Source: Liolophura sinensis (taxonomy: Eukaryota; Mollusca; Polyplacophora; Chitonida; Chitonidae). From it: a stretch of 64,000 nucleotides of DNA. Of this stretch, positions 28,701 through 62,158 are shown in pieces. The DNA is taken from NCBI RefSeq assembly GCF_032854445.1, contig NC_088299.1, positions 15,927,608 through 15,991,607 on the forward strand, read 5' to 3'. Numbering within the stretch: the stretch's first letter is position 1; each line of letters opens with the position of its first letter. A model generated the notes under the pieces. That model saw only the letters and a list, made by a program, of their open reading frames with translations. It was not told the DNA's origin and ran no database searches. The position numbers were made by a program, and so were the translations under genes.

Positions 28701-31700
28701 AATATGGTCACTTATTAATACCATGCAGTTTTTGTTAAAATTTGTGTTTGGTTGCTGAGAGTTCACAAATTTCAGTACATTGGTAAATTGATGATTGGTT
28801 CATTGGTGGTTATATTGTTGATACATACATAGTTGTGGATATTCATTGTTACATTATATTTCAAAACTTAATGTATTTGAAGCAGATTCTTTGTTTTGAA
28901 TACTAAACATTGTCTTTTAGTGTTTCAAAAACAACATTGAGGCATACATACATATGCACCATGCTTTATAACATTGTTCATTACCATGGATGTCATTTAC
29001 CATTTTACAAAAAATGTTAACATCGTAGCTCACACTCATGTAACACACTCAGAATGTGAAAATTTTCTGTGTAAGAGCATTCCAACTGATAAAGATGAGT
29101 CTATGTCTAATTTACTTCTGGAAGTGTGATAATATTATAGACCCTTACATACTCAGACGTGCTGACAGCCTTTCTCTGATGTGTTTGCTGTTTCAGAGAC
29201 GTACTGGAGTAAGGGTAGGTTCTCAGGGTCAGCACATTAACCTTCCCTTGGCCTGGACAGAACTCTCCCAGCTGGCTCAGTGTAAAGGGTCCATCCAGGA
29301 AGGTGGGTAGTGCAGGTCACCATAGCGTAGAAGTCTTGTAAAGGCTCCTTCCAGGAAGGTGAGTAGTGCAGGTCACCATAGTGTAGAAGTCTTGTAAAGG
29401 CTGCATCCAGATAGGTGGGTGGTGCAGGTCACCTTAGTGTGGGAGTGTTGTAAAGGCTGCATCCAGGAAGGTGGGTGGTGCAGGTCACCTTAGTGTGGGA
29501 GTGTTGTAAAGGCTGCATCCAGGAAGGTGGGTGGTGCAGGTCACCATAGTGTAGAAGTCTTGTAAAGGCTCCTTCCAGGAAGGTGAGTAGTGCAGGTCAC
29601 CATAGTGTAGAAGTCTTGTAAAGGCTGCATCCAGATAATTGGGTGGTGCAGGTCACCTTAGTGTGGGAGTGTTGTAAAGGCTGCATCCAGATAGGTGGGT
29701 GGTGCAGGTCACCTTAGTGTGGGAGTGTTGTAAAGGCTGCATCCAGATAATTGGGTGGTGCAGGTCACCTTAGTGTGGGAATGTTGTAAAGGCTGCATCA
29801 AGATAATTGGGTGGTGCAGGTCACCTTAGTGTGGAAGTGTTGTAAAGGCTGCATCCAGATATGTGGGTAGTGCAGGTCACCTTAGTGTGGGAGTGTTGTA
29901 AAGGCTGCATCCAGATATGTGGGTGGTGCAGGTCACCGTAGTGTGGGAGTGTTGTGAAGGCTGCATTCAGATATGTGGGTGGTGCAGGTCACCTTAGCAT
30001 GCGGGTGTTGTAAAGGCTGCATCCAGATATGTGGGTGGTGCAGGTCACCTTAGTATGAGAGTGTTGTAAAGGCTGCATCCAGGAAGGTGGGTGGTGCAGG
30101 TCACCTTAGCGTGCGGGTGTTGTAAAGGCTGCATCCAGGAAGGTGGGTGGTGCAGGTCACCTTAGTGTGGGAGTGTTGTAAAGGCTGCATCCAGGAAGGT
30201 GAGTAGTGGAGGTCACCTTAGTGTGGGAGTCTGGTAAAGACTCCACTCCAGTAAGGTGGGTAGTGCAGGCCACTTTAGTATGGGAGTGTTGTAAAGGCTG
30301 TATCCAGGAAGGTGGGTAGTGCAGGTTACCTTAGTAGGCAGGTGTTTTAAAGACTGCATCCAGATACATGTAGGTAGGTGGGGCAGGTCACCTTAGTATG
30401 GGAATGTTGTAAAATCTGCATCCAGGAAGATGGGTGGTGCAGGTCACCTTAGCGTGTAGGTGTTATAAAGGCTGCACCCAGGAAGGTGGGTGGTGCAGGT
30501 CACCTTAGCATGTGGGTGTTGTAAAGACTGCATCCAGGAAGGTGGGTGGTGCAGGTCACCTTAGAGTGCGGGTGTTGTAAAATCTGCATCCAGGAAGGTG
30601 GGTGGTGTAGGTCACCTTAGCATGTGGGTGTTGTAAAGGCTGCATGCAGGAAGGTGGGTGGTGCAGGTCACCTTAGCCTGTGGGTGTTGTAAAAGCTGCA
30701 TCCAGGAAGGTGGGTGGTGCAGGTCGCCTTAGCATGCAGGTGTTATAAAGGCTGCATCCAGGAAGGTGGGTGGTGCAGCTCACCTTAGCGTGTGAGTGTT
30801 ATAAAGGCTGCATCCAGGAAAGTGGGTGGTGCAGGTCACCTTAGCATGCAGGTGTTATAAAGGTGGTGCAGGTCACCTTAGCGTGTGAGTGTTATAAAGG
30901 CTGCATCCAGGAAGGTGGGTGGTGCAGGTCACCTTAGCCTGTGGGTGTTGTAAAAGCTGCATCCAGGAAGGTGAGTGGTGCAGGTCACCTTAGTGTGCGG
31001 GTGTTATAAAGGCTGCATCCAGGAAGATGGGTGGTGCAGGTCACCTTAGCGTGTGGGTGTTGTAAAAGCTGCATCCAGGAAGGTGGGTGGTGCAGGTCAC
31101 CTTAGCGTGTGGGTGTTGTAAAAGCTACATCCAGGAAGATGGGTGGTGCTGGTCATCTTAGTGTGGGAGTGTTGTAAAGGCTGCATCCAGGAAGGTGAGT
31201 AGTGGAGGTCACCTTAGTGTGGGAGTGTTGTCACAAATGCTCATATATTGGACGATTGCCTGTCCCACTCTTACATGTCTAGTCACTCTGGCTAGTCTCA
31301 ATAATGTTTTACAGAGAAGTCTCTGATATTTGGAGGTTTATTTGTCACCTGGTTAAGGTTGGTACTTTACTCTGGGCTCTCTGCCAATAAACTTGACCGA
31401 GGGGTTGTCATATTAGTGAAATAAGTTCTTAAGCATCAGTTGAGAATGTGGACTCAATCTGCATTATACATTCTTGGATTGATGGTTGTTCGCTACTAAC
31501 CTGGCAAAATCTGCTCAATCTTAGTACCATTTTATGTCCTAGATCTTCACTCTTTTCAGCTGCCTCTGCAACCAATATTTTGGAATGTTCTGAGAGAACT
31601 ATGGCGTGTAGAGAAATAATTTGCACAGTTTCATAAAGGTAACATCTTTAATGACACAACCACATCATTTTTAGTGTAATTTTCATAGTAACTGTATGCA

Positions 31701-34700
31701 GAAATTCTACTGAAAAAGTGGTTTAGTGGTTGGAAAGGTTGAAGATGTCCATTCCCCTGATTTACAGATTGCCTGGATGTGTTGATTATCTCCCTGGATC
31801 AAGCCCCTCTAGAGCACTGTCACATCCCTGCACTGTTCTTCCTGGCTGAGACAATGCTGTATTGGCTGAGAACAGATGTCATTCACCAGCCATATCTACG
31901 GACAGCTGAGATCAAACTACTGAGAGTGAGCAAACAGTTTTCTGTCCCTTGACACAAAGATATTTTACCAAACTTTGTCCGTAACAATAACTGTCTTGCC
32001 AGATGGTTTTGTCACAATTCCAGAATATTAACTAAAACTCCATACGTGTAAATGCTGCATGCTCACAGTCTATATAATTTCGCAGTGTACAGTTCAGATT
32101 TAGACTCGATGACATTATGCATTGTACAGATGGGCCAACTTGTATTCACACGCCTGTTTTACCATCACATGGCGGGAGAACTCAGGGAGGAGAAGGAGTT
32201 CAAGGAGCGACTCTTTACCTACCTAGACGGTAAGATGTAATTGTCAAATTATATTGGTAATAACTTGAATTGGGAAGATCACTGAAGAATTAGTAGGGTG
32301 TGTATCACCTTTACCCGAATGTTGTGTTTTCCTTGTGGTCTGTCAGTCTATCACTCAGTCACTCACACAGTCTGTCTGTCTACATGGCTGAAGAATTAGC
32401 AGGATGTGTATTGCCCTTACCCGAATGCCCTGTTTTCCTTGTGTTGTCTGTCAGTCTATCACTCAGTCACTCACACAACCTGTCTGACTACATGGCTGAA
32501 GAATTACCGTGGTGTGTATCTTCCTTCTGTCTGACTACAGGCTGAAAAATTACCAAAATATCTATCTCCCTTACCCTGATATCCTGTTTTCCTTGTGTTG
32601 TCTGTCAGTCTATCACTCAGGCACTCACACAACCTGTCTGACTACATGGCTGAAGAATTACTGTGGTGTGTATCTTCCTTCTGTCTGACAACAGGCTGAA
32701 AAATTACCAAAATATCTATCTCCATTACCCTAATATCCTGTTTTCCTTGTGTTGTCTGTCAGTCTCTCACTCAGTCACTCACACAGCCTGTCTGTCTGTC
32801 TACAGGACTGAAGGATTACCAGGATATGTAGCTGACTTACCCCAATGTTCTGTTTTCCGTGTGGTCTGTCAGCCTGTCACTCAGTCACTCACACAGTCTG
32901 TCCGTCTGTCTACAGGACTAAAGGATTACCAGGATGCGTACCGCCCATATCCCAATGCCCTGCTTTCCTTACGGTTTGTCATTGCGGTGGGGAAGATCAT
33001 CTTGTCTGATTTGGATCTGGTTACCGCACAAGCAAAGGAAGAGAAGTCTTCATCTGACCAGCCAGACCAGGAAAAGGGGAGTAAGCCACAAACTGTGCAC
33101 AAAGAGAGACAGAAGCTACCGGTATCAGCCTCATCCACGCGGAAAGTAACGACCCCCAAGTCCTTGGCCTCATCATCTAGAGCCACACGCTTCTCATTCC
33201 ACAGTCGGCCAGACTCCACCACATGGGACTCTAAGGTAAGCTGTTTCTCATTTTGTATTCTTGCTGACAACTTTACCAGAAGTCTGGTAAGGACATGTGC
33301 ACTACTTGCCTGTACATATAGCTGTTATTTGACAGTTTGACAAGAGCAGTATGGCAGTATAATTTATTTATAATTTATTTATTTCATTGGTGTTTTATGC
33401 CCTACTGAAAGAATTTTTTATGTATACAACGCAATCAGCATTATGGTTTGAGGAAACTGGGCAGAACCAGGGGGAACCCACGACCATCCACAGGTTGCTG
33501 AGACTTTTCCACGTACTGCCGAAGAGGAAGCCAGCATGAGCTGGACTTGAACTCACATTGACTGCATTGGTGAGAGGCTCCTGGGTCATTGCACTGCACT
33601 GGTGTGCTGACCACCTCAGCCATGGAGGATCCTGTATGGAGTTATGAGGTTTTTTTTTTTCATGCTTGTTGTCTCTGTCAACATGTTTACAGGACTGAGG
33701 TACAGTGTGAAGTAGTGTTTATGCTCTCATGTAACCTTAACGAAGTTTACTCTCACATGGGAGAGTTTGCCAGTGCAACTTGCCAAATGTTGGTAGTTTA
33801 TTCTGGCACTCAAGTTTCCTCCTATAAGTGAAAACTTCTTGAACAAGGCAGTTAAACAAAGGTCAAAAAAAAGAAGAAAACAATGGGAGAACAATTATCA
33901 AAAGAAAAAAAGTGATAAGATTTTGAATACTAGGATGTGTTGTTTAGGCCTAATGAGGTGAAGTTGAGATAAATTCATAGAATAACCTGTGCTGATCAGA
34001 TAACATTCCTTCAGCATACCAAAACATGCACTACATATATGTGTGTGGTTGAATTTGTTAGGGATGTGGATTATGCTCAAGTAATAGAGATTGTGTTTTG
34101 TGTGTACGGACCTGTTCTAGCTGTTCTCCACTGTGTCAAGTAAAGCTTGTGATGCTCACTCTGCATGCTGGGGCAACAGCGGAGCTCTGAGTAGCAGTAT
34201 CCACGACCTAAGCCCCACCCTGTGGCACTCCCTGGATGTCTGGAGGTGCACCAATCATCTGGGCAGAGGGCTCAGTCATGCTCTCCGAGCATTGGCTTGT
34301 TGTGCAAGCGGATTAGCCAATGAAACCTGGTGAGTGAGAAACACTGGACACACCCCCTGAAATGTACACATATTGTCTTGTTCATTTCTGTTTTACTATC
34401 ATCTCTGTGGACTGTAAGGTAAAAATGATCTGCTGTGTACAGATGGAAACGTTTGTCATGATTACGTGTAACTTAATACATTCAGCAAGAAAGATGAGGC
34501 TGGATGGTACAAATGTAGTAACACAGGGAGTGAGATGTGGCTCGGTGGTATTACATGTGCATGTGTTGATGAGTGATCCACAAACATGTCCTGAGGATTC
34601 GCTGCAAAACATGTCCTGTCGATTCGCTGCAAACATGTCCTGTCGATTCAATCTGGACTTGCACCAGATTTCCACATCATGGGGTCTTGAAGACAGTATG

Positions 34701-37700
34701 CGATCAGCAGTGCTTGTGGGGCCACTTGCACAGTCTTTCAAGACCATTTGTATTCTGCTAAAATGGCATGTGTGTGTCACGCCTATAGGAAAGTTTATCA
34801 CAAACTTGCCATTGGTTGATGGTTTATGCCAGGAACAGTGTTGTTCTCAATTCATAGCTGACGGTCACCATATATGCCAGGAATTTTTCATTATGGCATT
34901 TAACAACAATGTAATAAATTCATGTAAATACCCCTCTGGAGACAGTGTTTGGGTGTGAAATGAAGTTTTGGCTGCCCAACTCTCCCTGTTATGTTACATG
35001 TAGGACCTGAAAACTTGTAAAGGCATGATACAGAAAATGTCAGAGCTGATTCCAGTGCCATCACAAACTGCAGTGGACATGTACACGGATGTTTTTGAGT
35101 TATTTTACACTACTGATTACATTCTTTAATATTTTTTCTTTCCTATTTTTTAATCCCAAAGGATTGACACAACCTGTTCCATGTTGATCCTGGCTGAAGC
35201 AGCTAAATCAAACTTGGCTGCTCTAAAGGTGATGCAAAACCTGGCCAAAGGGGAGATTCCCCAAGACTTCCAGGACTCCCCACCAAGCAGCAGGCACACT
35301 GAGGAGTCAGGTAGGCCAGGCTCTAGTCCCACATGATTGAGAAACTGGGTTGTTCCATCGTATGAAATAATAGATCATATGAGATAAAACGTTTGGGAGC
35401 AGGACCTTGATGTCATTTTATGAACGTCAACTTTTCCTTTCCCAGCTCATGACGATGACGTCACATTAAAGACAGTACAAAGGTACAATAGAAACTGATG
35501 CATTGTGGCATTAGAGACATTGGCACTACAATTGATTGTGATGTAACAATGGGTCAAGGTCCTGCTTCTCATAGCGTAAAAAAATATGCCGCATCACCAT
35601 TAGGTTATTTCCTGACAAAATTCCTAAACATGGGTTTATACCCCTTGGTAAAAATTGACATCAATTAACAGTACTACCCTACATTTATACACGTGTATGT
35701 GCTACTTCCGAAAGGTGACTGACATACATATGTGCTACTTCTGAAGGGTCACTGACATATGTATGTGCTATTTCTGAAGGGTCACTGACATATGTATGTG
35801 CTATTTCTGAAGGGTCACTGACATATGTATGTGCTACTTCTGAAGAGCCACTGACATACATATGTGCTACTTCTGAAGGGTCACTCACCTACATACAAAT
35901 ACATGTATGTTGCCTTTGAAATGTGACTGATACACATACACTACTTCTGAAAGGTCACTGACATACATACACCTGCATGCCACTTGCATGTATATATAAG
36001 TTACTGGGTTGTCAGATTTTCCAAAGGGCTTGTAAATGTATCATCTGTGAAAAGGGTTATGAAGAATATTCTGGAATGGCAGAGAGCTGTTAAGTTCATC
36101 ACACTGAAGATTTTATTAGCAAAAAAATGCTTGATGATTTTCTTTAAATGTCTACAGGATCATTTTTATTGGTTTTCTCCTTGCACATGTACTGGCCTTG
36201 TTAATGTCATTAGATAGTCGTTAATAAGTCTATGAATAAAGTACACCATATCAGTATCATTGATGTCCTCAGATACATTCAGCATGGAGAATGGTGACTG
36301 TGGCGAAGAGGATTCACCAGTGAGTGATACCAGCTCTCGACCCTCCCTCAGTGATATATTTGAGCGTAGTGAGGAAGGGGAGACAGAGTCGAGGGTGAAG
36401 CCTTCAGAAATCGACTCCTCCCCTGACAGTTTCCAGGAACAACAACATGTGACAGCAGAGTCACCCATGCAGGACAGACCAGGCAAGGTGCAAGATTGTA
36501 CTGGTGACGGTGGTCAAGAGCAGAGGTGTCAAGAGGATGGCTCACCAGACATTGAACATTCTAGGCAGGAAGATGGGGCACAAGTCACCAGAGGTTTTGC
36601 TGAGGCCAAAAGTAATGATTCTGACCTGGATGGAAAGGGTTCTAAACCAGATGGGAAGGGTTCCAGTCATAAGGAGGAGGATTCCAAATTGGATGGGAAA
36701 GGTTTCAACCAACCCGAGGAGGGTTCTAAGCTAGATGGGGAAGGTTCCAGCCAAGATGAGGAGGGCTCTGTACTGGATGGGAATGGTTCTAGTCAAGAAG
36801 GGAAGGATTCCAGAGGAAATGAGAGACCCAAACCCGTCCTGCGTGACCCAGGTGTGAGTAAACACAACACTGGCAGAGAAGTCTCCTTTGATGAGAACAT
36901 CCAGTTGGCTGTGGTGGAGGAATTGAACACCTCAGATCCAGCCGTTAGTGCTGGTCTGTCTGCCAGTAAGGAGGAAGCCCAGTCCTGTGTGGATTTGGCT
37001 CACCAATCACAGGAGGACTCCTCGGTGCTAGATGCCCTGGACACTAATAAAAGAACTGGTCACAGACAGGACTCTGCGGATCTGTCAGGACGAGGCTCGA
37101 GGGCTAGCTCAGCGCCTACCTTCACCAACCAAGCGGTCAGTACATAGAAGAGCTATTTATTTGATCCTTGTTTAATGCTATGCTCAAAGGGTTTTCACAG
37201 TATTGGAACATGATGGAACAGTGTTGGAACATGGTGCTACAGTGTTAGAACATGGTGATACAGTGTTGGGAACACAATTTTGGAAGAAGTTCAATACTGC
37301 TTGCAAAGTTTATCCTTTTGAATCAAATGGGGAACCATTATGTATTTCATACTTCGTTAACAACATTCTTTGGAAATGTTCACTTCCACATGGATGAAGA
37401 TGGTTAGATTCATCAGTAGAGCAGGTACTTGAATATGTGGCTGATGAACCTCATCTCTTCTAGTCCTGTCCTACACCATATCTCTGCCAAAGAGAGCTAG
37501 ATACAAGTCTGCCTCATACTCACTGACCGCGGGGTAAGTAGGCTCAGGCAAGTTGAACATCACTTAGTCTAAATGAGTCAAGGCTTCCTGTATTATCATA
37601 AATTCAAAAACATATAAACTTGTAAGGAGTTGGCATCACCCTTAGGTTTAAATTAAATAGTGTATCTGTTGTGCGGTTAGCCCAGAACCCCATGGCTGGC

Positions 37701-40700
37701 ATTGGGAGACTGGTATTATGTACACAGAGATCATTGTTTTGTTGAAATCTGGGTGACAGAGTGTGAGCAGCCCTGGTCCACATGGCTTGCATTGGGAGAT
37801 GGGCATCATTTATGCAGAGGTCTGTTTATTTCGATGAATTTTGGTTTACAGAGTGTGGGCAGCTCTGGTCTCCATGGCTGGCATTGGGAGACTCAGACAA
37901 GCAACATGTACAGTGAAAGCAGAGGTTTTTGTTTTGATGAATTGTGGGTTACAGAGTGTGGGCAGCCCTGGTCTCCATGGCTGGCATGAGGAGACTCAGA
38001 CAAGCAACATATACAGTGAAAGCAGAGGTTTTTGTTTTGATGAATTGTGGGTTACAGAGTGTGGGCAGCCCTGGTCTCCATGGCTGGCATTGTGAGACTC
38101 AGACGGGCATCATGTACACAGAGATCATTGTTTTGATGAATTTTTGGTTACAGAGTGTGAGCATCCCTGGTCTCCATGGCTGGCTTTGGGAGACAGGTAT
38201 CATTTACACAAAGATTATTATTTGGTTGAAGTTTAGGTTACAGAGTGTGAGCAGCACTGGTCTCCATGGCAGGCTTTGGGAGACAGGTATCATTTACACA
38301 AAGATTATTATTTGGTTGAAGTTTAGGTTACAGAGTGTGAGCAGCACTGGTCTCCATGGCTGGCTTTGGGAGACAGGTATCATCTATACAGAGGTCTTTC
38401 TTTATTTTGATGAATTGTGGGTTACAGAATGTGGTCAGCCATGATCTCCATGACTGACATTTGGAGACTGGTATCATGTGCACAGAGATCATTGTTTTGT
38501 TGAATTCTGGGTTACAGAGTGTGGTCAGCCCTGGTCTCCATGGCTGGCATTGGGAGACGGGCATCATGTACACAGAGGTCATGGCAGACATTTGCCTCCA
38601 CGGCAGTTCCTCCCACATACAGAAAAGAGCTTTGGTCGGGGACAACGAGGATTTCCGTGAAGTGTTGAGACGACGGATCACGCAGATGCCCCTGTCCAGT
38701 GCAGGGTTGTTAGACTTGGCATTTTTCCACTCCGCAACTGATTCGAAGGATGGCAGTACGTATATTTATTAATATCTGATTAAAATTTGAAGAATATTGC
38801 TATACTGTTTTTATTTGTACCAGATTTAACAGATTTTAGACTGTTAGTTTCTTAGATTTTCTCTTTATTAGGCTGTGTCATCTAGTGCAGTCTGTGCAGA
38901 TTTTCTCTGATTTTCTCTTTATTGGGCGGTGTCATCTAGTGCAGCCTGTGGTTAAATTAGCCCCAACTGATGACTGGTAATTAGGATTTCAAGGCATCAT
39001 TATACATCAGCCCCTTCAGTCATGTCAGTGATTGTTCTAATACAGTACTGATTCGGGGGCAGTAGATCCAGAGTCATTTATGGGTCGGGTCACACCTTAG
39101 ACTTTAAAAGTTGTAACATCCACACCTAGCGGTCAACATTAAGGGGATAATGCAACAACTGGTTTGGCTTGGGTGACCAGATTACTTGTCTTCAGTAAGT
39201 CATCTCAGTGAAGCAGCACTAGATAAAAGAGCAGTGGTAATCTGTCCTGCAACAAGGAGGTACATTTACGTGCACTCTAAGGACTCCTGCGTCATCATAT
39301 GAGTGAAAAATTGTTACGATGTTAAACCCCAAGCACTGGCTCACTCCTAATACAGTATAAGACTTAGTAGGGGAGTTTTGGGTTGGGACTCTTTTGTCGT
39401 CAAAGGTAAGAGTAGTTCTGCTATGTCATGTGACTTGTGAAAAAAGTTAGGTAAGCTTTGTTGACATTAATTTACTGATCACCTGTCCCATCGTGTTCCA
39501 AAGGCACATATCATACCTCTTTCCTTTAGAATCTTCTCAAGTTCACAATTGTTCAGGTTCTTGCTTTTCTTTGTTTTTTGTCTACTCTAAATTACTTTTT
39601 ATGAAACTTTTTAAAGACGCCCATGTTATAGTAAATGTGATCAAAAATAGTTGCTTAACATTTTTGACAGGTCACATGATACAGTTGGGCTGTTTTTACC
39701 TTCACTGATAAAACAGTTCGAACTCGAAACTGCCCCATTCTTTCCATTGAATGTCAGGACTTTACAGTTATACTGTGTGGTATTTGGTTTATAGACTGGA
39801 GTTGGAGGATTCGCTGTGGTGCCATCCACTCTCTGGTGAAGATCTGCCACTGTCTGTGATGGTTAGTTAGTGTCAGTGTGTCATTACATTTTAATGTCTT
39901 GTTTCTGTAGATGAAAGTGACTGGAGTTGGAGGATTCGCTGTGGTGCCATCCACTCCCTGGTGAAGATCTGCCACTGTCTGTGATGGTTAGTTAGTGTCA
40001 GTGTGTCATTACATTTTAATGTCTTGTTTGTGTAGATGAAAGTGACTGGAGTTGGAGGATTTGCTGTGGTGCCATCCACTCCCTGGTGATGATCTGCCAC
40101 TGTCTGTGATGGTCAGTTAGTGTCAGTGTGTCATTACATTTTAATGTCTGGTTTGTGTAGGTGAGAGTGACTGGACTTGGAGGATTCGCTGTGGTGCCAT
40201 CCACTCCCTGGTGAAAATCTGCCACTGCCTGTGATGGTCAGTTTGTGTCAGTGTGTCATTACATTTTAATGTCTGGTTTGTGTAGATGATAGTTACTGGA
40301 GTTGGAGGATTTGCTGTGGTGCCATCCACTCCCTGGTGAAGATCTGCCACTGTCTATGAGGATCAGTTAGTGTCAGTGTGTCATTACATTTTAATGTCTG
40401 GTTTGTGTAATGTCTGGAGTTGGAGGATTCGCTGTGGTGCCATCCACTCTCTGGTGAAGATCAGCCACTGTCTATGAGGATCAGTTAGTGTCAGTGTGTC
40501 ATTACATTTTAATGTCTGGTTTGTGTAGATGAAAGTGACTGGAGTTGGAGGATTCGCTGTGGTGCCATCCACTCCCTGGTGAAGATCTGCCACTGTCTGT
40601 GATGGTCAGTTAGTGTCAGTGTGTCATTACATTTTAATGTCTTGTTTGTGTAGATGAAAGTGACTGGAGTTGGAGGATTTGCTGTGGTGCCATCCACTCT

Positions 40701-43700
40701 CTGGTGAAGATCTGCCACTGTCTATGAGGATCAGTTAGTGTCAGTGTGTCATTACATTTTAATGTCTGGTATGTGTAGGTGAGAATGACTGGAGTTGGAG
40801 GATTCGCTGTGGTGCCATCCACTCTCTGGTGAAGATCTGCCACTGTCTGTGATGGTCAGTTAGTGTCAGTGTGTCATTACATTTTAATGTCTGGTTTCTG
40901 TAGATGAAAGTGACTGGAGTTGGAGGATTTGCTGTGGTGCCATCCACTCCCTGGTGAAGATCTGCCACTGTCTATGAGGATCAGTTAGTGTCAGTGTGTC
41001 ATTACATTTTAATGTCTTGTTTCTGTAGGTGAGAGTGACTGGAGTTGGAGGATTTGCTGTGATGCCATCCACTCCCTGGTGAAGATCTGCCACTGTCTAT
41101 GAGGATCAGTTAGTGTCAGTGTGTCATTACATTTTAATGTCTGGTTTGTGTAGATGATAGTGACTGGAGTTGGAGGATTCGCTGTGGTGCCATCCACTCC
41201 CTGGTGAAAATCTGCCACTGTCTATGAGAATCAGTTAGTGTAAATGTGTCGTTACATTTTAATGTCTGGTTTGTGTAGATGATAGTGACTGGAGTTGGAG
41301 GATTTGCTGTGGTGCCATCCACTCCCTGGTGAAGATCTGCCACTGTCTATGAGGATCAGTTAGTGTCAGTGTGTCATTACATTTTAATGTCTGGTTTGTG
41401 TAGATGATAGTGACTGGAGTTGGAGGATTTGCTGTGGTGCCATCCACTCCCTGGTGAAGATCTGCCACTGTCTATGAGGATCAGTTAGTGTCAGTGTGTC
41501 ATTACATTTTAATGTCTTGTTTCTGTAGATGAAAGTGACTGGAGTTGGAGGATTTGCTGTGATGCCATCCACTCCCTGGTGAAGATCTGCCACTGTCTAT
41601 GAGGATCAGTTAGTGTCAGTGTGCCATTACATTTTAATGTCTGGTTTGTTTAGGTGAGAGTGACTGGAGTTGAAGGATTTGCCGTGGTGCCATCCACTCC
41701 CTGGTGAAGATCTGCCACAGTCTATGAGGATCAATTAGTGTCAGTGTGCCATTACATTTTAATGTCTTGTTTCTGTAGATGAAAATGACTGGAGTTGGAG
41801 GATTCGCTGTGGTGCCATCCACTCCCTGGTGATGATCTGCCACTGTCTATGAGGATCAGTTTGTGTCAGTGTGTCATTACATTTTAATGTCTGGTTTGTG
41901 TAGATGATAGTGACGCGAGTTGGAGGATTCGCTGTGGTACCATCCACTCCCTGGTGAAGATCTGCCACTGCCTGTGATGGTCAGGTAGTGTTAGTGTGTC
42001 ATTGCATTTTAATGTCTGGTTTGTGTAGGTGAGAGTGACTGGAGTTGGAGGATTTGCTGTGATGCCATCCACTCCCTGGTTAAGATCTGCCACTGTCTGT
42101 GAGGATCAGTTATTATCAGTGTGTCATTACATTTTAATGTCTGGTTTGTGTAGATGATAGTGACTGGAGTTGGAGGATTTGCTGTGGTGCCATCCACTCC
42201 CTGGTGAAGATCTGCCACTGTCTGTGATGATCAGTTAGTGTCAATGTGTCGTTACATTTTAATGTCTGGTTTGTGTAGATGATAGTGACTGGAGTTGGAG
42301 GATTTGCTGTGGTGCCATCCACTCCCTGGTGAAGATCTGCCACTGTCTATGAGGATCAGTTAGTGTCAGTGTGTCATTACATTTTAATGTCTGGTTTGTG
42401 TAGGTGAGAGTGACTGGAGTTGGAGGATTTGCTGTGGTGCCATCCACTCCCTAGTGAAGATCTGCCACTGTCTATGAGGATCAGTTAGTGTCAGTGTGTC
42501 ATTACATTTTAATGTCTGGTTTCTGTAGATGAAAGTGACTGGAGTTGGAGGATTTGCTGTGGTGCCATTCACTCCCTGGTGAAGATCTGCCACTGTCTAT
42601 GAGGATCAGTTAGTGTCAGTGTGTCATTACATTTTAATGTCTGGTTTGTGTAGGTGAGAGTGACTGGAGTTGGAGGATTTGCTGTGATGCCATCCACTCC
42701 CTGGTGAAGATCTGCCACTGTCTATGAGGATCAGTTAGTGTCAGTGTGCCATTACATTTTAATGTCTGGTTTGTTTAGGTGAGAGTGACTGGAGTTGAAG
42801 GATTTGCTGTGGTGCCATCCACTCCCTGGTGAAGATCTGCCACAGTCTATGAGGATCAATTAGTGTCAGTGTGCCATTACATTTTAATGTCTTGTTTCTG
42901 TAGGTGAGAGTGACTGGAGTTGGAGGATTTGCTGTGGTGCCATCCACTCCCTGGTGATGATCTGCCACTGTCTATGAGGATCAGTTTGTGTCAGTGTGTC
43001 ATTACATTTTAATGTCTGGTTTGTGTAGATGATAGTGACGCGAGTTGGAGGATTCGCTGTGGTACCATCCACTCCCTGGTGAAGATCTGCCACTGCCTGT
43101 GATGGTCAGGTAGTGTTAGTGTGTCATTGCATTTTAATGTCTGGTTTGTGTAGGTGAGAGTGACTGGAGTTGGAGGATTCGCTATGGTGCCATCCACTCC
43201 CTGGTGAAGATCTGCCACTGTCTTTGAGGATCAGTTTGTGTCAGTGTGCCATTACATTTTAATGTCTGGTTTGTGTAGATGATAGTGACTGGAGTTGGAG
43301 GATTTGCTGTGGTGCCATCCACTCCCTGGTGAAGATCTGCCACTGTCTATGAGGATCAATTAGTGTCAGTGTGCCATTACATTTTAATGTCTGGTTTCTG
43401 TAGGTGAGAGTGACTGGAGTTGGAGGATTTGCTGTGGTGCCATCCACTCCCTGGTGAGTGAGTGAGTGAGTGCTTGGGGTTTAACGTCGTACTCAACAAT
43501 TTTTCAGTCATATGACGACGAAGGAATCATTAGGGTGCATGCACGTGTAATGTGCCTCCTTGTTGCAGGACGGATTTCCACCGCTCTTTTATTTAGTGCT
43601 GCATCACTGAGACGACTTACCGAAGGCAAGTAAGCCGTCCCGCCCGAGCCATTATACTGATACGGGTCAACCAGTCGTTGCACTATCCCCTTCATGCTGA

Positions 43701-46700: not shown

Positions 46701-47286
46701 GATCAGTTACATGATGGCCAGATTTTGGTGTATTGTGGAGGATCAGGTACAGTATAGCAAGGCTTTAGTGCATTGTGGAGGATCAGGTACAGTATAGCAA
46801 GACTTTGGTGTATTGTGGAGGATCAAGTACAGTATGGCCAGTCTTTGGTGTAGGCCCCTATTGTGGAGGATCAGGTACAGTATGGCCAGTCTTCGGTGTA
46901 TTGTGGAGGATCAAGTACAGTATGGCCAGTCTTTGGTGTATTGTGGAGGATCAGTTACATGATGGCCAGACTTTGGTGTATTGTGGAGGATCAAGTACAG
47001 TATGGCCAGACTTTCATGTGTGGCGAAGATGGGCAGTTTACCCTAGGCATTGCAGTTTCCTCCACTTATAAAACTCACTGTCATCTCATAAGTGAAAAAT
47101 TTGTTGGTACATTGTTAAACAACAATCAAATAAATGTTGCAGTGGCGTAAAGAGCTGCAGGCTGGTTTGGATGAAGAGGAGAGTGGTCGTCAAGAAGCAT
47201 TGGAACGTGAGCAGGCGGCAGAGGAGAGGAGACAGCGACGGCTGGCTGAGGACAAAACCAGAAAGTTCACACAAACAGCTACATAA
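25741..47286 (+). CDS. TMEM232: TMEM232-like protein, 14 coding exons, 1011 aa
   Basis: Human TMEM232 is a testis-enriched protein linked to sperm flagellum formation; the role here is inferred. Exons: 25741-25880, 28341-28452, 29197-29302, 31768-31925, 32130-32229, 32916-33235, 34121-34329, 35162-35310, 36273-37135, 38518-38755, 44150-44331, 45130-45350, 46133-46226, 47143-47286. Every border is GT..AG and all phases agree. Seen: start MPVTKVPVVHKFGIIS; core blocks CLDVLIISLDQAPL and IPALFFLAETMLYWL (exon 4), MADICLHG (exon 10), GLRNVAWATL (exon 11); a Glu/Arg-rich helical tail (exon 14). It is longer than human (about 657 aa) because exons 6 and 9 add Ser/Lys/Asp-rich linkers; exon 9 has degenerate LDGKGSS-type repeats (about residues 547-608). 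Poly(A) signal AATAAA at 47378-47383. Introns 3, 5, 9, 10 and 13 hold arrays that copy an exon junction. The name rests on recalled similarity. Confidence 0.8.
26040..28200. repeat. 42-bp tandem array (about 50 units) in TMEM232 intron 1
   Basis: Degenerate unit (gattagatgggtgagggagg / caggtggttaggtttaggtaaa). It contains many GGTAAAG-type donor-like strings but no sequence from exon 1 or exon 2. It ends about 140 bp before exon 2. Confidence 0.92.
29303..31230. repeat. 56-bp array (about 34 units) copying the exon 3 / intron 3 donor junction
   Basis: Each unit reads ...tgtaaaggctgcatccaggaag|gtgggtggtgcagg.... The part before the bar matches the last 21 bp of TMEM232 exon 3 at about 19 positions, and the part after matches the start of intron 3. 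The real donor (29302|29303) is the first copy. Many later units keep AAG|GTGGGT or AAG|GTGAGT; some have lost it (agataattgggt). Confidence 0.9.
31345..31445 (+). mobile_element. Possible degenerate family-1 SINE fragment
   Basis: Resembles the SINE 3' half (gggctctctgcc ... gtcatattagtgaaataagttctt ... aagcatcagt), heavily diverged. In TMEM232 intron 3. Confidence 0.35.
32286..32915. repeat. About 110-bp array (5-7 units) copying the intron 5 / exon 6 acceptor junction
   Basis: Copies of the intron end (cactcacacagtctgtctgtctacag) joined to the start of exon 6 (gactaaaggattaccaggat and the following ~50 bp) recur at about 32381, 32489, 32535, 32643, 32690, 32801 and 32911 (true acceptor). 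Three older copies have tacatg for tacag and so lack the AG. The copy at 32801 keeps a complete acceptor and near-identical exon start but soon reaches an in-frame TAG. Confidence 0.88.
33366..33637 (-). mobile_element. tRNA-derived SINE, family 1, full length
   Basis: Tail at the left (tttatttatttcattggtgt), body gaaactgggcagaaccaggg, head with B-box-like gagttcaagtcc and A-box-like region on the minus strand. In TMEM232 intron 6. Confidence 0.82.
35690..35975. repeat. 33-bp tandem array (about 8 units) in TMEM232 intron 8
   Basis: Unit cactgacatatgtatgtgct / acttctgaagggt. No exon sequence in the unit. Confidence 0.88.
37690..38517. repeat. About 86-103-bp array (about 8 units) copying the intron 9 / exon 10 acceptor junction
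   Basis: Each unit has gggttacag followed by agtgtgggcagccctggtct and the next ~40 bp, which are the first ~60 bp of TMEM232 exon 10, then ~30-40 bp of intron. Copies start near 37755, 37848, 37950, 38053, 38149, 38238, 38333 and 38427; the true acceptor is 38517|38518. The AG is kept in almost all copies, and the copied exon piece often stays open in the exon frame. Confidence 0.88.
39240..39352 (+). mobile_element. Family-2 SINE, 3' fragment (plus)
   Basis: Reverse complement of the left part of the copy at 43457: tgcaacaaggaggtac ... atatgagtgaaaaattgtta ... gttaaaccccaagcactggctcac. In TMEM232 intron 10. Confidence 0.75.
39780..44149. repeat. 125-bp array (about 30 units) copying the intron 10 / exon 11 acceptor and first ~72 bp of the exon
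   Basis: Period exactly 125 bp. Each unit ends its intronic part with a pyrimidine-poor tttgtgtag or tttctgtag acceptor, followed by DNA encoding (E)SDWSWRIRCGAIHSLVKIC. This matches the start of exon 11 (ENDWSWRIRYGAIHSLVKIC), then an in-frame TGA and ~50 bp of intron. The true exon is the last copy (44150) and differs from the array consensus at shared positions (CGTTAT for CGCTGT, GCCGCT for GCCACT). Units are more alike to each other than to the exon. A family-2 SINE interrupts the array at 43457-43822. Confidence 0.95.
43457..43822 (-). mobile_element. Family-2 tRNA-derived SINE, full length, inserted in the 125-bp array
   Basis: The target duplication cactccctggtg lies on both sides (43445-43456 and 43823-43834). 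The minus-strand head is tRNA-like (gatagcacagttggtagagc for the A box, then ggatcaatcc for the B box). The body ends in a (TCAC)n-type tail at the left. The array unit continues in register after the insertion. Confidence 0.92.
45590..46015. repeat. Irregular ~31-bp array in TMEM232 intron 12
   Basis: Units such as ttgacagctttgatttggac / atgtaattgta with length variants. No exon sequence recognised. Confidence 0.8.
46227..47020. repeat. 40-bp array (about 20 units) copying the exon 13 / intron 13 donor junction
   Basis: Unit tattgtggaggatcag|gtacagtatggccagactttggtg. The part before the bar matches the last ~18 bp of TMEM232 exon 13 (tattgtggaggaccag) and the gt that follows is its donor. 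The true donor (46226|46227) is the first copy. Most units keep CAG|GTACAG; some read CAG|TTACAT or AAT|GTACAG. Confidence 0.93.
47040..47136 (+). mobile_element. Family-1 SINE 3' fragment abutting the last TMEM232 acceptor
   Basis: Diverged SINE 3' half (gcagtttcctccacttataa ... ctcataagtgaaaaattt ... acaatcaaataaat). Its tail ends about six bases before the ttgcag acceptor of exon 14 (47143), so the immediate splice-site context is SINE-derived. Confidence 0.65.
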
Positions 47287-50530: not shown

Positions 50531-50789
50531 GTGTAGAAACTCAAGAAATATATCTTTAATAAAGCAAGTAGCGCTGAAAATGCACCATACTGCACATAAT
50601 AAACTTTCTCATTTCTGCAACAATGTAACTGTCCTGTAACAGCTTCCAACGAACATTCACATGAATGCATGGATTTGGCAAATGTTGCAGATTGTGTAAA
50701 ACAACTCTCAAAACTGGAGCAAATATAAATCTTGCTTACATCTTTAAACGGCAGTAGTGAAAGGAACATAAAAAGCCAGTGGCATATGC

Positions 50790-51215: not shown

Positions 51216-51856
51216 ACGGAGTAAATCCTACAGCTTGAAACATGGAAGTACATGATGTATACATGTATCAATCACTTTTCAAACGTGTGGAATAAAGGAT
51301 GGTATCTTCCGGGAAATACCAACTCAAAGCTGAATAATTCACATATAAAAATGCATACAGTTATCAAAACTGGACTAATCCATGTAAAGAATGGTTCAAG
51401 ACCCATGAAAGTTAAGGTAAATTGTGTATTTGATATACATGTAAGGCTAGGAAGTATAATTTCTAGATTATAACATGATAAAACACATCCTGAATATAAA
51501 TGGAATACCTTTCCAAAGCGAAAACAATATGTGCAGTGTAGCAGCATAAGACACTTGATGATATTAGCACTGGCTTAGTGTCTTAGGATCTCCACATTGA
51601 TCTCTACATTGGTTCAAAATCTGTTCACAAGGACATCCAGGGCAAGTCACAGCAGACATACTGGAGTATGTAGAGTGAGGAAAATCAAGCTCCCTGGTCT
51701 CAAACCATTGTGTATGAACTTGACTGGTTGAAAACGGTCATAGATATCTTCACAGAAAAAGGTGTGACAACAGAAGGATGAACACATGCAAACACAGAAA
51801 GCATTTCCATGGTCCCTCAACATTAATGGAGCAGGTTCCTGTCACGTGTCCTTATC

Positions 51857-51984
51857 TACATTGACACGGAGGTAACTCTACTTTCCTTCCTGGCGTTCTC
51901 TGCAGCACAGATTACTTTACAGTGACAGGGAGATAACTCTATTTTCCTTCCTGGCCTTCTCAGCAGCAAAGACCAGGAGGTGGC
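51857..51984. repeat. 62-bp tandem duplication across the oxidoreductase stop codon
   Basis: gacacggaggtaactctact (from 51861) and gacagggagataactctatt (from 51923) start two similar 62-bp copies. On the minus strand the first copy is the true CDS end, and the second repeats the codons for AAEKARKE-like residues past the stop, in the 3'UTR. Confidence 0.75.
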
Positions 51985-54900: not shown

Positions 54901-57900
54901 ATACATGTATGTGTAGCAGCTAGAATATAAAGTTGAGATGATGCTAAGAGCTAACACACCTCTCAAGGGGAATGAGAGTCAAGTATATCTCATCCTTTTT
55001 ACTTGAAAGGTCTCCTAGACAACTGTACATGCTTTAATTGCCATTTGTCTCTCCTGAAAAAGTTCCAGTCTCCTAACATGGAGGTACAGAGGTTCACATG
55101 ATCATTTGGGTGATACCTACATGCAAAAGACCAGTGCACTGTACCCAGACAAAACGTGATTGTAGAACTGTTCAGTGAATGTAGAGCTGCCAAGTGTACG
55201 TGCAGTGAAATGCTAAGTTGCCAAATGAGTGCAAAGGTCCCAAATAAATTCAGAGAGGATGGGTGAATAAAGGCTTGGCAGGATCACATTTTTTTAAACC
55301 CTCACACAGTTAATGTACCAAGGAGCTTCACAAAGCTAGATGTACCAAGGGGATACAGAGCTCTAAAGGGGATTAAGGGGATAAAAAGGCTGTTAAGGGG
55401 ATTGATAACTGCAGATAGTTGTCACATAAATAGGAAGAAAAGACGAGTGGCTATGCATGAGACACATAGCAAAATAAAATCATGTGCTCTTAATTATATG
55501 TGCAGGAATTTGAGACAACACCCAAAGATACATTAAAATTAACCAGGAAAGCTGTTTGTCCCATAAGAATGTATACTCTCTTTAAACCATGTGAGAAACA
55601 CCTTTTTGCCTATATCAAGAGTTGATTTTCAATGCCTATGCAGCTATATTCCTGAAATGACCATTTTGGCTGGTTAAAAGTGACCTTTGTACTTACTCAT
55701 TTTTCTGGTGCGGAAATCATATTGATAGACTGGTCCCCCAAACTTACATGTCAGCTCCCCCTATAGGGAACAATTACAATATGTGTAGGTCAACCAGAAA
55801 AAAAACCTATCAGTTTTGTACACAAATGCCTAACATTGGCTGCTTGTCTCATAAAAACAATCTTTGTGTTAGAGATTGGATTTCTGGAGGAAAATGACAA
55901 AAACTGGATACCTCAATCAGTTTTATGATTTCAACATGGAATGTAGCCTTTGCAGAGGGAAAAAGAGGTGTGTTTACTGGATGCGTCAGTAATGAGTTTA
56001 GGCTACTGGATCTTTTCAGATTTTACTGTGTCAGAGACAAAGAACGCGTATATATCAACATCACTATTAGAGACGGGTTTAAAATTATCTTTGATGATCA
56101 CAAATGGAAACTGATCAAGTCAAAACAGAATACCCCAACCTTTATAAATAGCTTTTATCCCCTTATTTTTTTCCAACACAAATTTACCACACTCTTTTTG
56201 TCAGCAAATTTTGACTGAATAATAAATAAATTGAATGCTGTGATGAGAAACTCCGGGTGCATACACACTCATAGGGATCTTTCCAGTCTGAAGCACTGAT
56301 TGACTTAACACACTGTAAGCTTTAACATAAATAAGGGAACCTGGCCACTCACCATGGTGCCATGGACTTTGACTTCTCGTCGGCAGACAGACTCTGTAAA
56401 GGCCACCATGGTGAAGGAGACGGTCTGACCTTGATCAAACTGTAAGTTCACCACCTAGAACATCAAAAACGTCAGAGTGAAGTCTTTAGTGATGTGAAAA
56501 CAAGATTAAAGCTACCAAAGAGCTCAGCTGAAGAAAAAACATGACTGCAAAACTTCTCCTCAATATATAAAAAGCTATTTGAGTTTGCACACTTGACATT
56601 AATACTAATGTTGAGTAACAAATCAGTGACAAAGTCATTAATTTTTTAATTTACCATTACAGGATAAATTAGCATAAACCAGGACTTCCTGGGCAGTACA
56701 ACCACAAGCAGGGCATCAATGATGAAACACCCTTCTTCTTGCATCAGTGTGGTTTACAATGTACAGGTGCAAGCAGGGCTTCAGTGATGAAATAATCCCT
56801 TCTTGTGTCACTGTGGTTTACAATGTACAAGTGCAAGCAGGGCTTCAGTGGTGAAATAATCCCTTCCTGCATCAGTGTGGTTTACAATGTACAGGTGCTA
56901 GCAGGGCTTCAGTGATGAAATAATCCCTTCTTGTGTCACTGTGGTTTACAATGTATAGGTGCAAGCAGGGCATCAGTGATGAAATAATCCCTTCTTGTGT
57001 CACTGTGGTTTACAATGTACAGGTGCAAGCAGGGCTTCAGTGATGAAATAATCCCTTCTTTTGTCACTGTGGTTTACAATGTATAGATACAAGCAGGGCA
57101 TCAGTGATGAAATAATCCCTTGTGTCACGGTGGTTTACAATGTACAGGTGCAAGCATGGCATCAGTGATAAAATAATCCCTTCTTGTGTCACTGTGGTTT
57201 ACAATGTATAGATACAAGCAGGGCATCAGTGATGAAATAATCCCTTCTTTTGTCATTGTGGTTTACAATGTACACGTGCAAGCAGGGCATCAGTGATGAA
57301 ATAATCCCTTCTTGTGTCACTGTGGTTTACAATGTACACGTGCAAGCAGAGCATCAGTGATGAAATAATCCCTTCTTGTGTCACTGTGGTTTACAATGTA
57401 CACGTGCAAGCAGGGCATCAGTGATGAAATAATCCCTTCTTGTGTCACTGTGGTTTACAATGTACACGTGCAAGCAGAGCATCAGTGATGAAATAATCCC
57501 TTCTTGTGTCACTGTGGTTTACAATGTACACGTGCAAGCAGAGCATCAGTGATGAAATAATCCCTTCTTGTGTCACTGTGGTTTACAATGTACACGTGCA
57601 AGCAGAGCATCAGTGATGAAATAATCCCTTCTTGTGTCACTGTGGTTTACAATGTACACGTGCAAGCAGGGCATCAGTGATGAAATAATCCCTTCTTGTG
57701 TCACTGTGGTTTACAATGTACAGGTGCAAGCAGGGCATCAGTGATGAAATAATCCCTTCTTGTGTCACTGTGGTTTACAATGTACAGAAACAAGCAGGGC
57801 ATCAGTGATGAAATAATCCCTTCTTGTGTCACTGTGGTTTACAATGTACAGAAACAAGCAGGGCATCAGTGATGAAATAATCCCTTCTTATGTCACTGTG

Positions 57901-60900
57901 GTTTACAATGTGCAGATACAAACCTGAGATCAACCCATGCTATTTGACACGTATTTGTCATTAACACACAAGCATCAATCAACACAGGAAAACATATGCG
58001 CAAAATCTGAGCTTAACATGTATACAAAACATTTTGGGTTTTTTTAATGTAAATACAGTACTGCTTAATTCTAATGTTGTATCTTAGACATATGTGGGTC
58101 GGAATAACCTTGTATAAAAATATTTTCACAAAATTATTGTCACACACACTGGAATTAGTGAAAATTTTGTGAACTTGATACTATAGGTGTACCTGGTGGG
58201 TAACAACATCATTGTCGCAGTCATACACACATCGCCCGTATGGGCCAGTCCTTAGAGCTTCTGTCACGCTTTCAATGTCAGGAATGTCCACCACAACATC
58301 AACAGGCCAGTGAGTATTTCCCTGGGAAAACACAAGACTGACTTTCAATCTGACTTTCATTCTCAGTTGCAGTTTTATATATACATGTTGTCTTCTCCTG
58401 TTGTAAAAAGAGTAAAAACAGAGTGGATGTTAATCACAGTCCATGCTCTTCACGATACTACCGGTAAACACTTTCAGTACTGAACCTTGATGACCATCTA
58501 CACTGTCCTGGATTATTGCCCTAAAATGTGAAAATATGAAGGAAATTAAAATCACAAGTAATAATAAATACTTACCCTGACTGTTGAGTGAACATGTTAT
58601 TCAATACTGAAAGAAAACAATGTAAAATTTTATATTTTTGTTAGGCCCTCTGGGCGATATGCCCTCTTGAAATTGTCAGTAATATCATTAAACCATAATC
58701 TTGTGCACCGGCCACAGGGAAAATCATCAGGCCAAATTTGCTGAATTTTTACATGGTGCTTGCCAACCTTTAAACCAGCACAACTGAATCGAACAAATAC
58801 ATTTTTGAGACCTTACTGACCTCAGGATTATGAATTTCAATGAAATATTCTCCTTCAAAATATGGCATCTTGTAATTGCCAAAAAACGTTTAAAAATTTA
58901 ATATGCAGGCTTTGTGCAAGAGTGCACAAAACATGCCATTGCAGTTTTCCATAGGAACAGGCATCAAGCTGGCAACAGTCTGTTCTTTCTGTCTTTTGTT
59001 CTCTGCTGTGAGCAGAAGATCAAAGCTACATAATCTCTATGCACTAAATGGCAGTCTCTGGTTCAAATCCAGGGTATTTTTTTTCTCACATTTTTTCGAT
59101 AGCAATCCCTGGAATTTCTGTTCTCAACAGCTAGGTTTTGTGTTGGAATTATCAGAGATTTCTATAAATTCTTGGATCTTGATATTATGCTGCATCCAAA
59201 GTTTGGACATTAGGTCCTGGAAAACAGTGCAGATAGTCAGACTTTTTTGCAGATAAGCAACATCAAGGTAGTGTATACTGTGGGAGGAGATATCTGGAAT
59301 TGTCAGTTTGAGACAAGTGATATTCAGCATTTGTCTACAGATGACAACTGATTATTCCATCCCACAGAATGCACAATGTTTAAATTATACCAAAAAGGTA
59401 AAGAAAAGAGTGATAACTGAGTTAGAAATCATGTGTCAGATCATTGGCTAGTGTCACATATTAATACTGCTTAGTGAATGTAGAATATAACTTTGTGAAA
59501 GTGGGATATTACTTTGTAAATATGGGATATTGCCTTGTGAATGTGGGATATTACTTTGTGAATGTGGGATATTACTTTGTGAATGTGGGATATTACTTTG
59601 TGAATGTGGGATATTACTTTGTAAATATGGGATATTGCCTTGTGAATGTGGGATATTAGTTTTTGAATGTGGGATATTGCCTTGTGAAAGTGGGATATTG
59701 CTTTGTGAATGTGGGATGTTGCTTTGTGAATGTGGGATGTTGCTTTGTGAAAGTGGGATGTTGCTTTGTGAATGAGGGATACTACTTTGTGAGTATGGGA
59801 CATTGCTTTGTGAATTTGGGATATTACTTCGTGAATTTGGGATATTGCTTTGTGAATGTAGGATATTGCTTTTTGAATGTGGGACATTGCCTTGTGAATG
59901 TGGGATGTTGCTCTGTGAAAGTGGGATGTTGCTTTGTGAATGGGATATTGCGCTGTGAATGTGGGATATTACTTTGTGAGAGTGATGTTCCTCTGCTTGT
60001 CATTATCTATGTGTGCATATTCAATCTATTGGCAATTTGATTTATTTCTTTCCTTCTTATTTAATGGCAAGCTCTGGATTTTTTCAAGTGTACAATGATG
60101 GTTAAAGTATTTATTTATTCATTTGATTGGTGTTTTATGCCGTACTCAAGAATATGTCACTTATATGATGGCGGCCGGCTTTATGGTGGGAGGAAACCCT
60201 TGACCGTCCACAGGTTCTTGACATTAGAGCAGAGTGTACAATGCTAATAACAGTACTTCTAAACAAGATCAAAGTGTAAAGGGAGATAACCAGGTTACTA
60301 GATAAGGCTACGTGTTACCTGTTTGACTTGATTCAGGTAAAGCTTGACGGCAGAGTAAGGACATTCCTTCTCCACTTTACAGTCCAGACACCGATTGGCT
60401 GCCCCCTCGGGCTGCAAACACCGGATTAAGGGAAATACATGACAAGCCATTAGGGGAACACATAACAAACCACGACGGGAAAAACATGACAAGCCATTAG
60501 GGGAACACATAACAAACCACGACGGGAAAAACATGACAAGACATGACAGTAGCAGTAACTCATCAGTCACAGTAGCAATAATTCATCTTAAAAGAAAAAT
60601 AACACATAATATAACCACTGGTTATTTTGAATGAGGGCTGTAAAAACAGACCTATGCAACCATTGCCATTTGTTCTGTGCACCACCTGCCTGACTGATGA
60701 CACCCTCATTACAAATTCCTAGCATTATTACCTTGTGTTCCTCGGTAAAGTCTGTCAGCTGTCCGAATGATGACACCCTCATTAACAACTCATAGCATTA
60801 TTACTTTGTGTTCCTTGGTAAAGTGTCTCAGCTGTCCCAATGATGACACCCTCATTACCAACTCCTAGCATTATTACCTTCTGTTCCTTGGTAAAGTCTG

Positions 60901-62158
60901 TCAGCTGTCCGAATGATGACACCCTCATTAACAACTCATAGCATTATTACTTTGTGTTCCTTGGTAAAGTGTCTCAGCTGTCCCAATGATGACACCCTCA
61001 TTACAAACTCCTAGCATTATTACCTTCTGTTCCTTGGTAAAGTCTGTCAGCTGTCCGAATGATGACACCCTCATTACCAACTCCTAGCATTATTACCTTG
61101 TGTTCCTTGGTAAATTGCGTCAGCTGTCCGAATGATGACACCCTCATTACAAACTCCTAGCATTATTACCTTGTGTTTCTTGGTAAAGTGTGTGAGATGT
61201 CCGAATGATGACACCCTCATTAACAACTCATAGCATTATTACTTTGTGTTCCTTGGTAAAGTGTGTCAGCTGTCCGAATGACAACACCCTCATTACAAAC
61301 TCCTGGCATTATTACCTTGTGTTTCTTGGTAAAGTGTGTGAGATGTCAGAATGATGACACCCTCATTACCAACTCCTAGCATTATTACCTTGTGTTTCTT
61401 GGTAAAGTGTGTGAGATGTCAGAATGATGACACCCTCATTACAAACTCCTAGCATTATTACTTTGTGTTCCTTGGTAAAGTGTGTCAGCTGTCCGAATGA
61501 TGACACCCTCATTACAAACTCCTAGCATTATTACCTTGTGTTTCTTGGTAAAGTGTGTGAGATGTCGGAATGATGACACCCTCATTACAAACTCCTAGCA
61601 TTATTACCTTGTGTTCCTTGGTAAAGTGTGTCAGCTGTCCGAATGATGACACCCTCATTACAAACTCCTAGCATTATTACCTTGTGTTCCTTGGTAAAGT
61701 GTGTCAGCTGTCCGAATGATGACACCCTCATTACAAACTCCTAGCATTATTACCTTGTGTTCCTTGGTAAAGTGTGTGAGATGTCAGAATGATGACACCC
61801 TCATTACAAACTCCTAGCATTATTACTTTGTGTTCCTTGGTAAAGTCTGTCAGCTGTCCGAATGATGACACCCTCATTACAAACTCCTGGCATTATTACC
61901 TTGTGTTTCTTGGTAAAGTGTGTGAGATGTCAGAATGATGACACCCTCATTACCAACTCCTAGCATTATTACCTTGTGTTCCTTGGTAAAGTGTGTCAGC
62001 TGTCCGAATGATGACACCTTTACACATTTACTCCTCCCCATCCAGTAGCAGATAAGGTCAAGGTCATGACAGGACTTGGTCATTAGACAGAAACTACTCT
62101 CGTCTTCCCGTCTCCAGTTTCCTCGCACGTAAGAGTGGCCATAGTGCCAAAACCCTAT
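51917..62158 (-). CDS. Gfo/Idh/MocA-type oxidoreductase, C-terminal half (5' exons outside window)
   Basis: NAD(P)-dependent dehydrogenase family; the substrate is unknown. Exons on the minus strand: 62158-61973, 60411-60319, 58321-58193, 56454-56353, 55760-55697, 53305-53208, 52033-51917. All are GT..AG, with phases 0,0,0,0,1,0 joining into 262 residues. Seen: [15 protein letters not shown], then [14 protein letters not shown] (the Cys-His-Asp stretch usual near the active site), [15 protein letters not shown]; exon b has [14 protein letters not shown] with three spaced cysteines; exon c [24 protein letters not shown]; exon d VVNLQFDQG; exon f [18 protein letters not shown]; last exon [17 protein letters not shown]. 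The order fits bacterial-like YteT-type members. The N-terminal Rossmann domain would lie beyond 64000; I found no exon for it in 62159-64000. The intron after exon a holds a 73-bp array copying that exon's donor junction. Confidence 0.87.
52225..52960. repeat. ~21-bp G-rich array in the last oxidoreductase intron
   Basis: Variants of gtgtactgggaggaggggtg. G-rich on plus, C-rich in the transcript. No exon sequence within it. Confidence 0.88.
53005..53143 (-). mobile_element. Family-2 SINE with internal deletion
   Basis: Starts like the family tail (gtgagtcaatgagtgcttgg), jumps to gccaagggaggaagttacaa and ends at the tRNA-like head (cagacactccacccgctgag). About 60% of the body is missing. Confidence 0.75.
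53450..54690. repeat. ~20-bp array (gatcagaggaaaccagagt) with a ~90-bp higher-order unit
   Basis: The short unit is irregular on the left. From about 54240 a longer block (agtgagcactggaagctgaa ... gtgatcaggggaatccaa) repeats five times with little change. Lies in the intron between oxidoreductase exons e and f. Confidence 0.9.
56690..57915. repeat. 64-bp tandem array (about 19 units)
   Basis: Unit aagcagggcatcagtgatga / aataatcccttcttgtgtca / ctgtggtttacaatgtacac / gtgc. Central units are nearly identical. In the intron between oxidoreductase exons c and d; no exon sequence in the unit. Confidence 0.95.
59470..59995. repeat. 21-bp tandem array (about 24 units)
   Basis: Unit ttgtgaatgtgggatattac / t. 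Open frames on both strands are by-products of the 21-bp period. In the intron between oxidoreductase exons b and c. Confidence 0.94.
60108..60228 (-). mobile_element. Family-1 SINE, 3' part
   Basis: ttcatttgattggtgtttta, cgccgtactcaag-type continuation, ggtgggaggaaaccc. Head absent. Confidence 0.82.
60420..60545. repeat. Short ~59-bp duplication upstream of oxidoreductase exon b
   Basis: gacaagccattaggggaaca / cataacaaaccacgacggga occurs twice, with a third partial copy next to the exon b acceptor. Confidence 0.75.
60650..61972. repeat. 73-bp array (about 18 units) copying the exon a / intron donor junction of the oxidoreductase
   Basis: On the minus strand each unit reads gtgtcatcattcggacagct / gacacactttaccaaggaac / acaag|gtaataatgctagg. 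The ~45 bp before the bar are almost identical to the 3' end of exon a ([15 protein letters not shown]), and the gt is its donor. The true donor (61973|61972) is the first copy. AAG|GTAATA or AAA|GTAATA is kept in practically every unit. Confidence 0.94.

Follow-up and report, generated by a model that had tools for sequence, protein, structure and literature searches.

Why do minisatellites in the introns of a gene repeat the border between intron and exon? This question is raised by a 64-kb stretch of contig NC_088299.1 (the window), for which an earlier note described six intronic arrays with units made of an exon end plus the start of the intron (donor type) or of an intron end plus the start of the exon (acceptor type). 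Their existence and location, in an ortholog of TMEM232 and in part of a Gfo/Idh/MocA-like oxidoreductase gene, were confirmed by Tandem Repeats Finder (TRF), by BLAST of exons against introns and by lists of the individual copies. Although the earlier note knew of no named system of this kind, such arrays are published as 'mirages' in amphioxus (PMC3087553, PMC3902484). With a probability of roughly 0.8 we regard the six arrays as minisatellites of this 'mirage' type, i.e. tandem duplications that span a splice junction, have expanded within the intron and are tolerated since the outer site is used. In a genome rich in minisatellites, tandem duplications in these two adjacent genes would by chance have taken in an exon-intron junction on six occasions, and unequal exchange or slippage would then have enlarged each array within its intron. 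The spliceosome would keep using the junction that is joined to the exon body, through exon definition and degradation of faulty messages. If the outer junction is kept in use in this way, the additional junction copies would be selectively neutral, and indeed they look like tolerated neutral by-products. Among the causes proposed in the earlier note, the most fitting is that expansion is tolerated as long as the outer splice site can be used.

Minisatellites abound in the window, with 78 overlapping rows in the TRF output. The 15 + 4 mapped exons of the two genes were compared with their flanking introns (BLAST with word size 7 and E ≤ 0.01, plus strand; 36 exon sides, with 1500 bp searched at the two outer sides of the oxidoreductase gene). 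Exon copies occur in introns at exactly six of these sides, namely at the donors of TMEM232 exons E3 and E14 and of oxidoreductase exon EB1, and at the acceptors of TMEM232 exons E6, E11 and E12 (Table 1); at the same threshold no copies were found in the introns flanking the other 30 of the 36 sides. The copied exon parts comprise 29281-29302 (E3), 46200-46226 at most (E14) and 62018-61973 (EB1) for the donor type, and 32916-32981 (E6), 38520-38582 (E11) and 44150-44220 (E12) for the acceptor type. Cutting the arrays into copies yielded a total of 113 junctions besides the genuine ones, hereafter termed decoys. Identity to the array consensus is 0.82-1.00 for 112 of the 113 decoys and 0.77 for a single edge copy. 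The genuine copies reach 0.85 at E6 (lowest), 0.86 at E3 and 0.93 at E12 (both low), 0.93 at E14 (middling), 0.96 at E11 (tied highest) and 0.99 at EB1 (near the top). The donor arrays end near whole units, in contrast to the acceptor arrays of E6 and E11. Of the array positions listed in the earlier note, 29303 and 46227 each mark the base with which the intron starts at a genuine donor, while 60650, 32286, 37690 and 39780 mark, at least roughly, the opposite, intronic ends of their arrays, which have the genuine junctions at 61973, 32916, 38520 and 44150, respectively.

Table 1 Host genes and junction-spanning arrays in the window (positions are those of the window)
Feature	Position	Strand	Unit	Genuine junction	Decoys	Remarks
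TMEM232 ortholog	25741-47286	+				E1 25741-25880 to E15 47143-47286; carries five of the six junction arrays
Oxidoreductase gene part	56354-62158	−				exons 62158-61973 (EB1), 60411-60336, 58323-58196, 56456-56354
E3 donor-type array	29281-31231	+	56 bp (22 exon + 34 intron)	donor 29302/29303	33	
E6 acceptor-type array	32282-32982	+	~110 bp (44 intron + 66 exon)	acceptor 32915/32916	4	partial copy at left edge
E11 acceptor-type array	37690-38582	+	~90 bp (28 intron + 62 exon)	acceptor 38519/38520	8	partial copy at left edge
E12 acceptor-type array	39794-44220	+	125 bp (54 intron + 71 exon)	acceptor 44149/44150	32	one decoy is a diverged edge copy; SINE-like insert inside
E14 donor-type array	46210-47017	+	40 bp (17 exon + 23 intron)	donor 46226/46227	19	
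EB1 donor-type array	60705-62018	−	73 bp (46 exon + 27 intron)	donor 61973/61972	17	

The genuine junction had been described as always being the outermost copy, next to the exon body. This anatomy is right, but it provides no independent clue, because any inner choice would bring repeats into the mRNA and coding constraint leaves only that copy. For E6, E11 and E12 the translated exon parts were scored against protein homologs, with gaps treated as unknown bases and insertions omitted. At these three of the six junctions the genuine exon copy outscores every decoy (0/32 decoys at E12, 0/8 at E11 and 0/4 at E6 reach its score). For E12, where all seven of seven homologs contributed, the genuine copy scores 110.7, compared with a mean of 84.9 and a maximum of 100.7 among the decoys; for E11 (one of two homologs) the values are 85.0 for the genuine copy and at most 74.0 for the decoys. 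For E6 (two of five homologs, the other three not covering the exon) the genuine copy scores 78.5 and the decoys at most 44.0, a result that partly reflects relatedness, since P0001, one of the two, is closely related to the TMEM232 gene studied here. The data do not demonstrate an array shared with this relative (85% identity over 48% of the query): its upstream stretch resembles the intron tail (11-17 of 1000 shuffles were as good, depending on the frame), but the likeness of LSLR to the exon copy is at chance level (90/1000).

The splice dinucleotide is intact in 99 of the 113 decoys, that is GT in 27/33 (E3), 16/19 (E14) and 17/17 (EB1), and AG in 3/4 (E6), 7/8 (E11) and 29/32 (E12, including the diverged edge copy). 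From the average conservation of dinucleotides in these arrays, 97.7 would be expected, which argues against both purging and preservation of the decoy sites. In conservation, the exon and intron parts of the decoys are at most about 0.06 apart. Counted from exact positions, use of a decoy with intact dinucleotide would cause a frame shift or a stop in 97 of 99 cases. Donor strength was taken simply as the number of positions that agree with the U1 consensus, CAG/GTRAGT. The genuine donor of E3 is equalled or beaten by 22 of 33 decoys, five of which beat it; at E14 and EB1 it is equalled by 11/19 and 12/17 decoys, respectively, and beaten by none. Site strength as measured by U1 count does not mark out the outer copy. 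Since use of nearly all intact decoys would be harmful, yet two thirds of those at E3 match U1 as well or better, either the outer site is chosen by something beyond simple strength or misuse is tolerated.

The E12 intron is probably older than its array, since the similarity of seven of seven homologs breaks off at about the same points on the acceptor and the donor side (alignments judged by eye); for E6 and E11 the homologs say little on this matter. The array is interrupted by an insert at 43458-43822 that resembles a short interspersed nuclear element (SINE) and contains a weak tRNA-like stretch on the minus strand (43747-43818; 29.2 bits at a cut-off of 29, E 0.052). A 13-bp duplication borders it on both sides (at 43445 and 43823), and as the duplicated bases are themselves part of the repeat unit, the insert is younger than the array.

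Two observations weigh against the interpretation as chance duplications that are merely tolerated. First, the E6 and E11 arrays are without a recognisable intron-tail part at their intronic edges (32282-32346 and 37690-37734), which is not what a single duplication of an intron tail with the adjoining exon head would lead one to expect. When the intronic edge was compared with the intron tail, 119/500 and 419/500 shuffles scored equally for E6 and E11, respectively, and 1/500 for E12. Second, six arrays span a junction where 1.17-2.40 are expected (a 2.5- to 5-fold excess), so that chance seeding may not be the whole story.

These expected values come from a comparison with random array positions, as suggested in the earlier note, which we ran on the two gene spans. 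For the model, all arrays including these six were reduced to a single unit each, and seeds with the observed unit lengths were distributed at random over both spans. The model omitted an 11-bp row of 2.3 copies (33358-33382), TRF rows overlapping one another within an array, arrays beyond the two mapped gene spans, a LYR-family gene (exons at 19.9-21.85 kb) and oxidoreductase exons past 62158 and under 56354. Among 16 arrays, 2.10, 1.69 and 1.17 junction-spanning arrays are expected for a minimum overlap of 3, 8 and 15 bp (P(≥6) 0.010, 0.003 and 0.0003). Without wholly exonic positions and the array in exon 9, the expectation among 15 arrays is 2.40, 1.93 and 1.34 (P(≥6) 0.018, 0.006 and 0.0004). 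The excess in the window is moderate, and since the finding was picked post hoc as striking in one window, the P values overstate the evidence. The earlier claim that junction starts point to a common cause depends on this excess.

It is the same excess (P 0.0003-0.018) that would speak for junctions as preferred birth sites of arrays, through transcription- or splicing-linked instability such as R-loops or the repair of breaks at exon edges. We consider this unlikely, given the post hoc choice from 15-16 arrays in one window. Moreover, long units often span junctions anyway, with E6, E11 and E12 each being 17-36% likely to do so by chance (depending on the rule), and nine to ten other counted arrays in the same two genes do not span junctions. 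Equally doubtful is the wider proposal that minisatellites in this genome truly arise preferentially at junctions, by a process coupled to transcription or splicing, which would make mirages a recurrent and general genome feature in different animal groups and no lancelet oddity.

A function of the arrays, as redundant or alternative splice sites for variant transcripts, appears very improbable. The many retained dinucleotides and the five E3 decoys with a better U1 match could be taken in its favour, and a human minisatellite gives, by the title of its report, multiple splice donor sites. Nevertheless, dinucleotide retention equals the neutral expectation, and almost every intact decoy, if used, would put the message out of frame or introduce a stop. 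That the arrays were falsely expanded or misplaced during assembly is highly unlikely: haplotype 1 of amphioxus BflGb6 is apparently mis-assembled in the genome draft (PMC3087553), but the copies here differ from one another, one array holds the SINE-like insert with its 13-bp duplication, and junction-spanning units at six places would hardly be expected from an artefact. The copy number of the arrays in the assembly may still be wrong.

The host gene on the plus strand, the TMEM232 ortholog, has 15 hand-read coding exons in a single open frame and GT-AG borders in 14 of 14 introns; the donor of exon 9 (37139) was picked for frame preservation. Its coding length is 3108 bases including the stop codon, and the product of 1035 amino acids matches Pfam TMEM232 (PF15877) with 348 bits (E 1.2e-103). 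The partial oxidoreductase gene, for which the ends of the last three exons are approximate, matches PF22725 (27.4 bits, cut-off 27) and falls narrowly under the cut-off for PF02894 (22.8 bits, cut-off 22.9); against PDB sequences the fragment gave no match at E ≤ 0.001. Judged by these Pfam matches, the two genes are unrelated to each other, in agreement with the earlier note.

A coding 42-bp repeat (14 amino acids, about four copies, 36636-36798) sits wholly inside exon 9 of TMEM232. It is an exonic array of another type, and the earlier claim that other arrays are without exon sequence does not hold for it. In the oxidoreductase gene, a 47-bp array at 60425-60546, about 13 bp upstream of the next exon's acceptor, is without exon sequence. 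Further features of the window are an open frame for a hAT-type transposase (2690-4477; PF05699), a CENP-M ortholog in a single open frame (14107-14751, minus strand) and the LYR-family gene with several exons (about 19900-21850, minus strand). Gene content (TMEM232, CENP-M) points to an animal as the probable source, and the interspersed SINEs may resemble those of molluscs. Long arrays of 42-bp (5722-8954) and 33-bp (15339-16998) units contain long open frames on both strands, as is to be expected of units whose length is divisible by three.

With their decoy junctions, some of which fit U1 better than the real donor does, the six natural arrays offer a ready test of splice-site choice where copies are nearly identical. 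They are also a warning that repeat copies may be mistaken for exons by gene predictors, a point that has been argued in the case of lancelet PGBD5 (PMC3902484).

How do these arrays compare with known systems? Three traits of mirages are found here: the unit spans the exon-intron boundary in all six arrays, both 5′ and 3′ exon boundaries are affected (three donor and three acceptor arrays), and AG or GT is kept in many but not all decoys. The original mirage paper is reportedly that of Canestro et al. 2002. A human donor-type minisatellite, going by the title of its report, likewise repeats splice donors. Its unit is said to be about 12 bp, with several donors used, and would hence be far shorter than the units described here.

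In amphioxus, mirages are reported from Adh3 and the globin genes BflGb6 and BflGb9 (PMC3087553), to which TnC and PGBD5 were added (PMC3902484). Units range from 10 to about 160 bp, and AG/GT is kept in many, not all, of the copies (PMC3087553, PMC3902484). The Adh3 data and reverse transcription PCR of the globins suggest that regular splicing is undisturbed (PMC3087553), and the boundary copies of BflGb6 are reported to escape homogenisation. Instability of array length, also in somatic tissue, counts as a further trait of mirages. Unlike the amphioxus mirages, the six arrays lie in two adjacent genes and have up to 33 decoys per array. The host group reported for mirages in these papers is the lancelets; if the present host is not a lancelet, mirages are more widespread than the two papers indicate (PMC3087553, PMC3902484). 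The Rogers model of intron gain through tandem duplication containing AG/GT (cited in PMC3087553) and human tandem repeats at exon-intron boundaries (PMC2812944) share with our arrays the tandem duplication with splice signals and the repeats at boundaries. The Rogers model differs in that at least the E12 intron here looks older than its array, judged by the same approximate edges in seven homologs. Of the matches listed for literature on molluscs or bivalves, one is the lancelet PGBD5 paper and no other title refers to junction-spanning arrays, and part of the text of the huntingtin paper (PMC2206037), checked for tandem repeats, describes no junction arrays. The arrays of this window are a well-populated new instance of the published mirage class.
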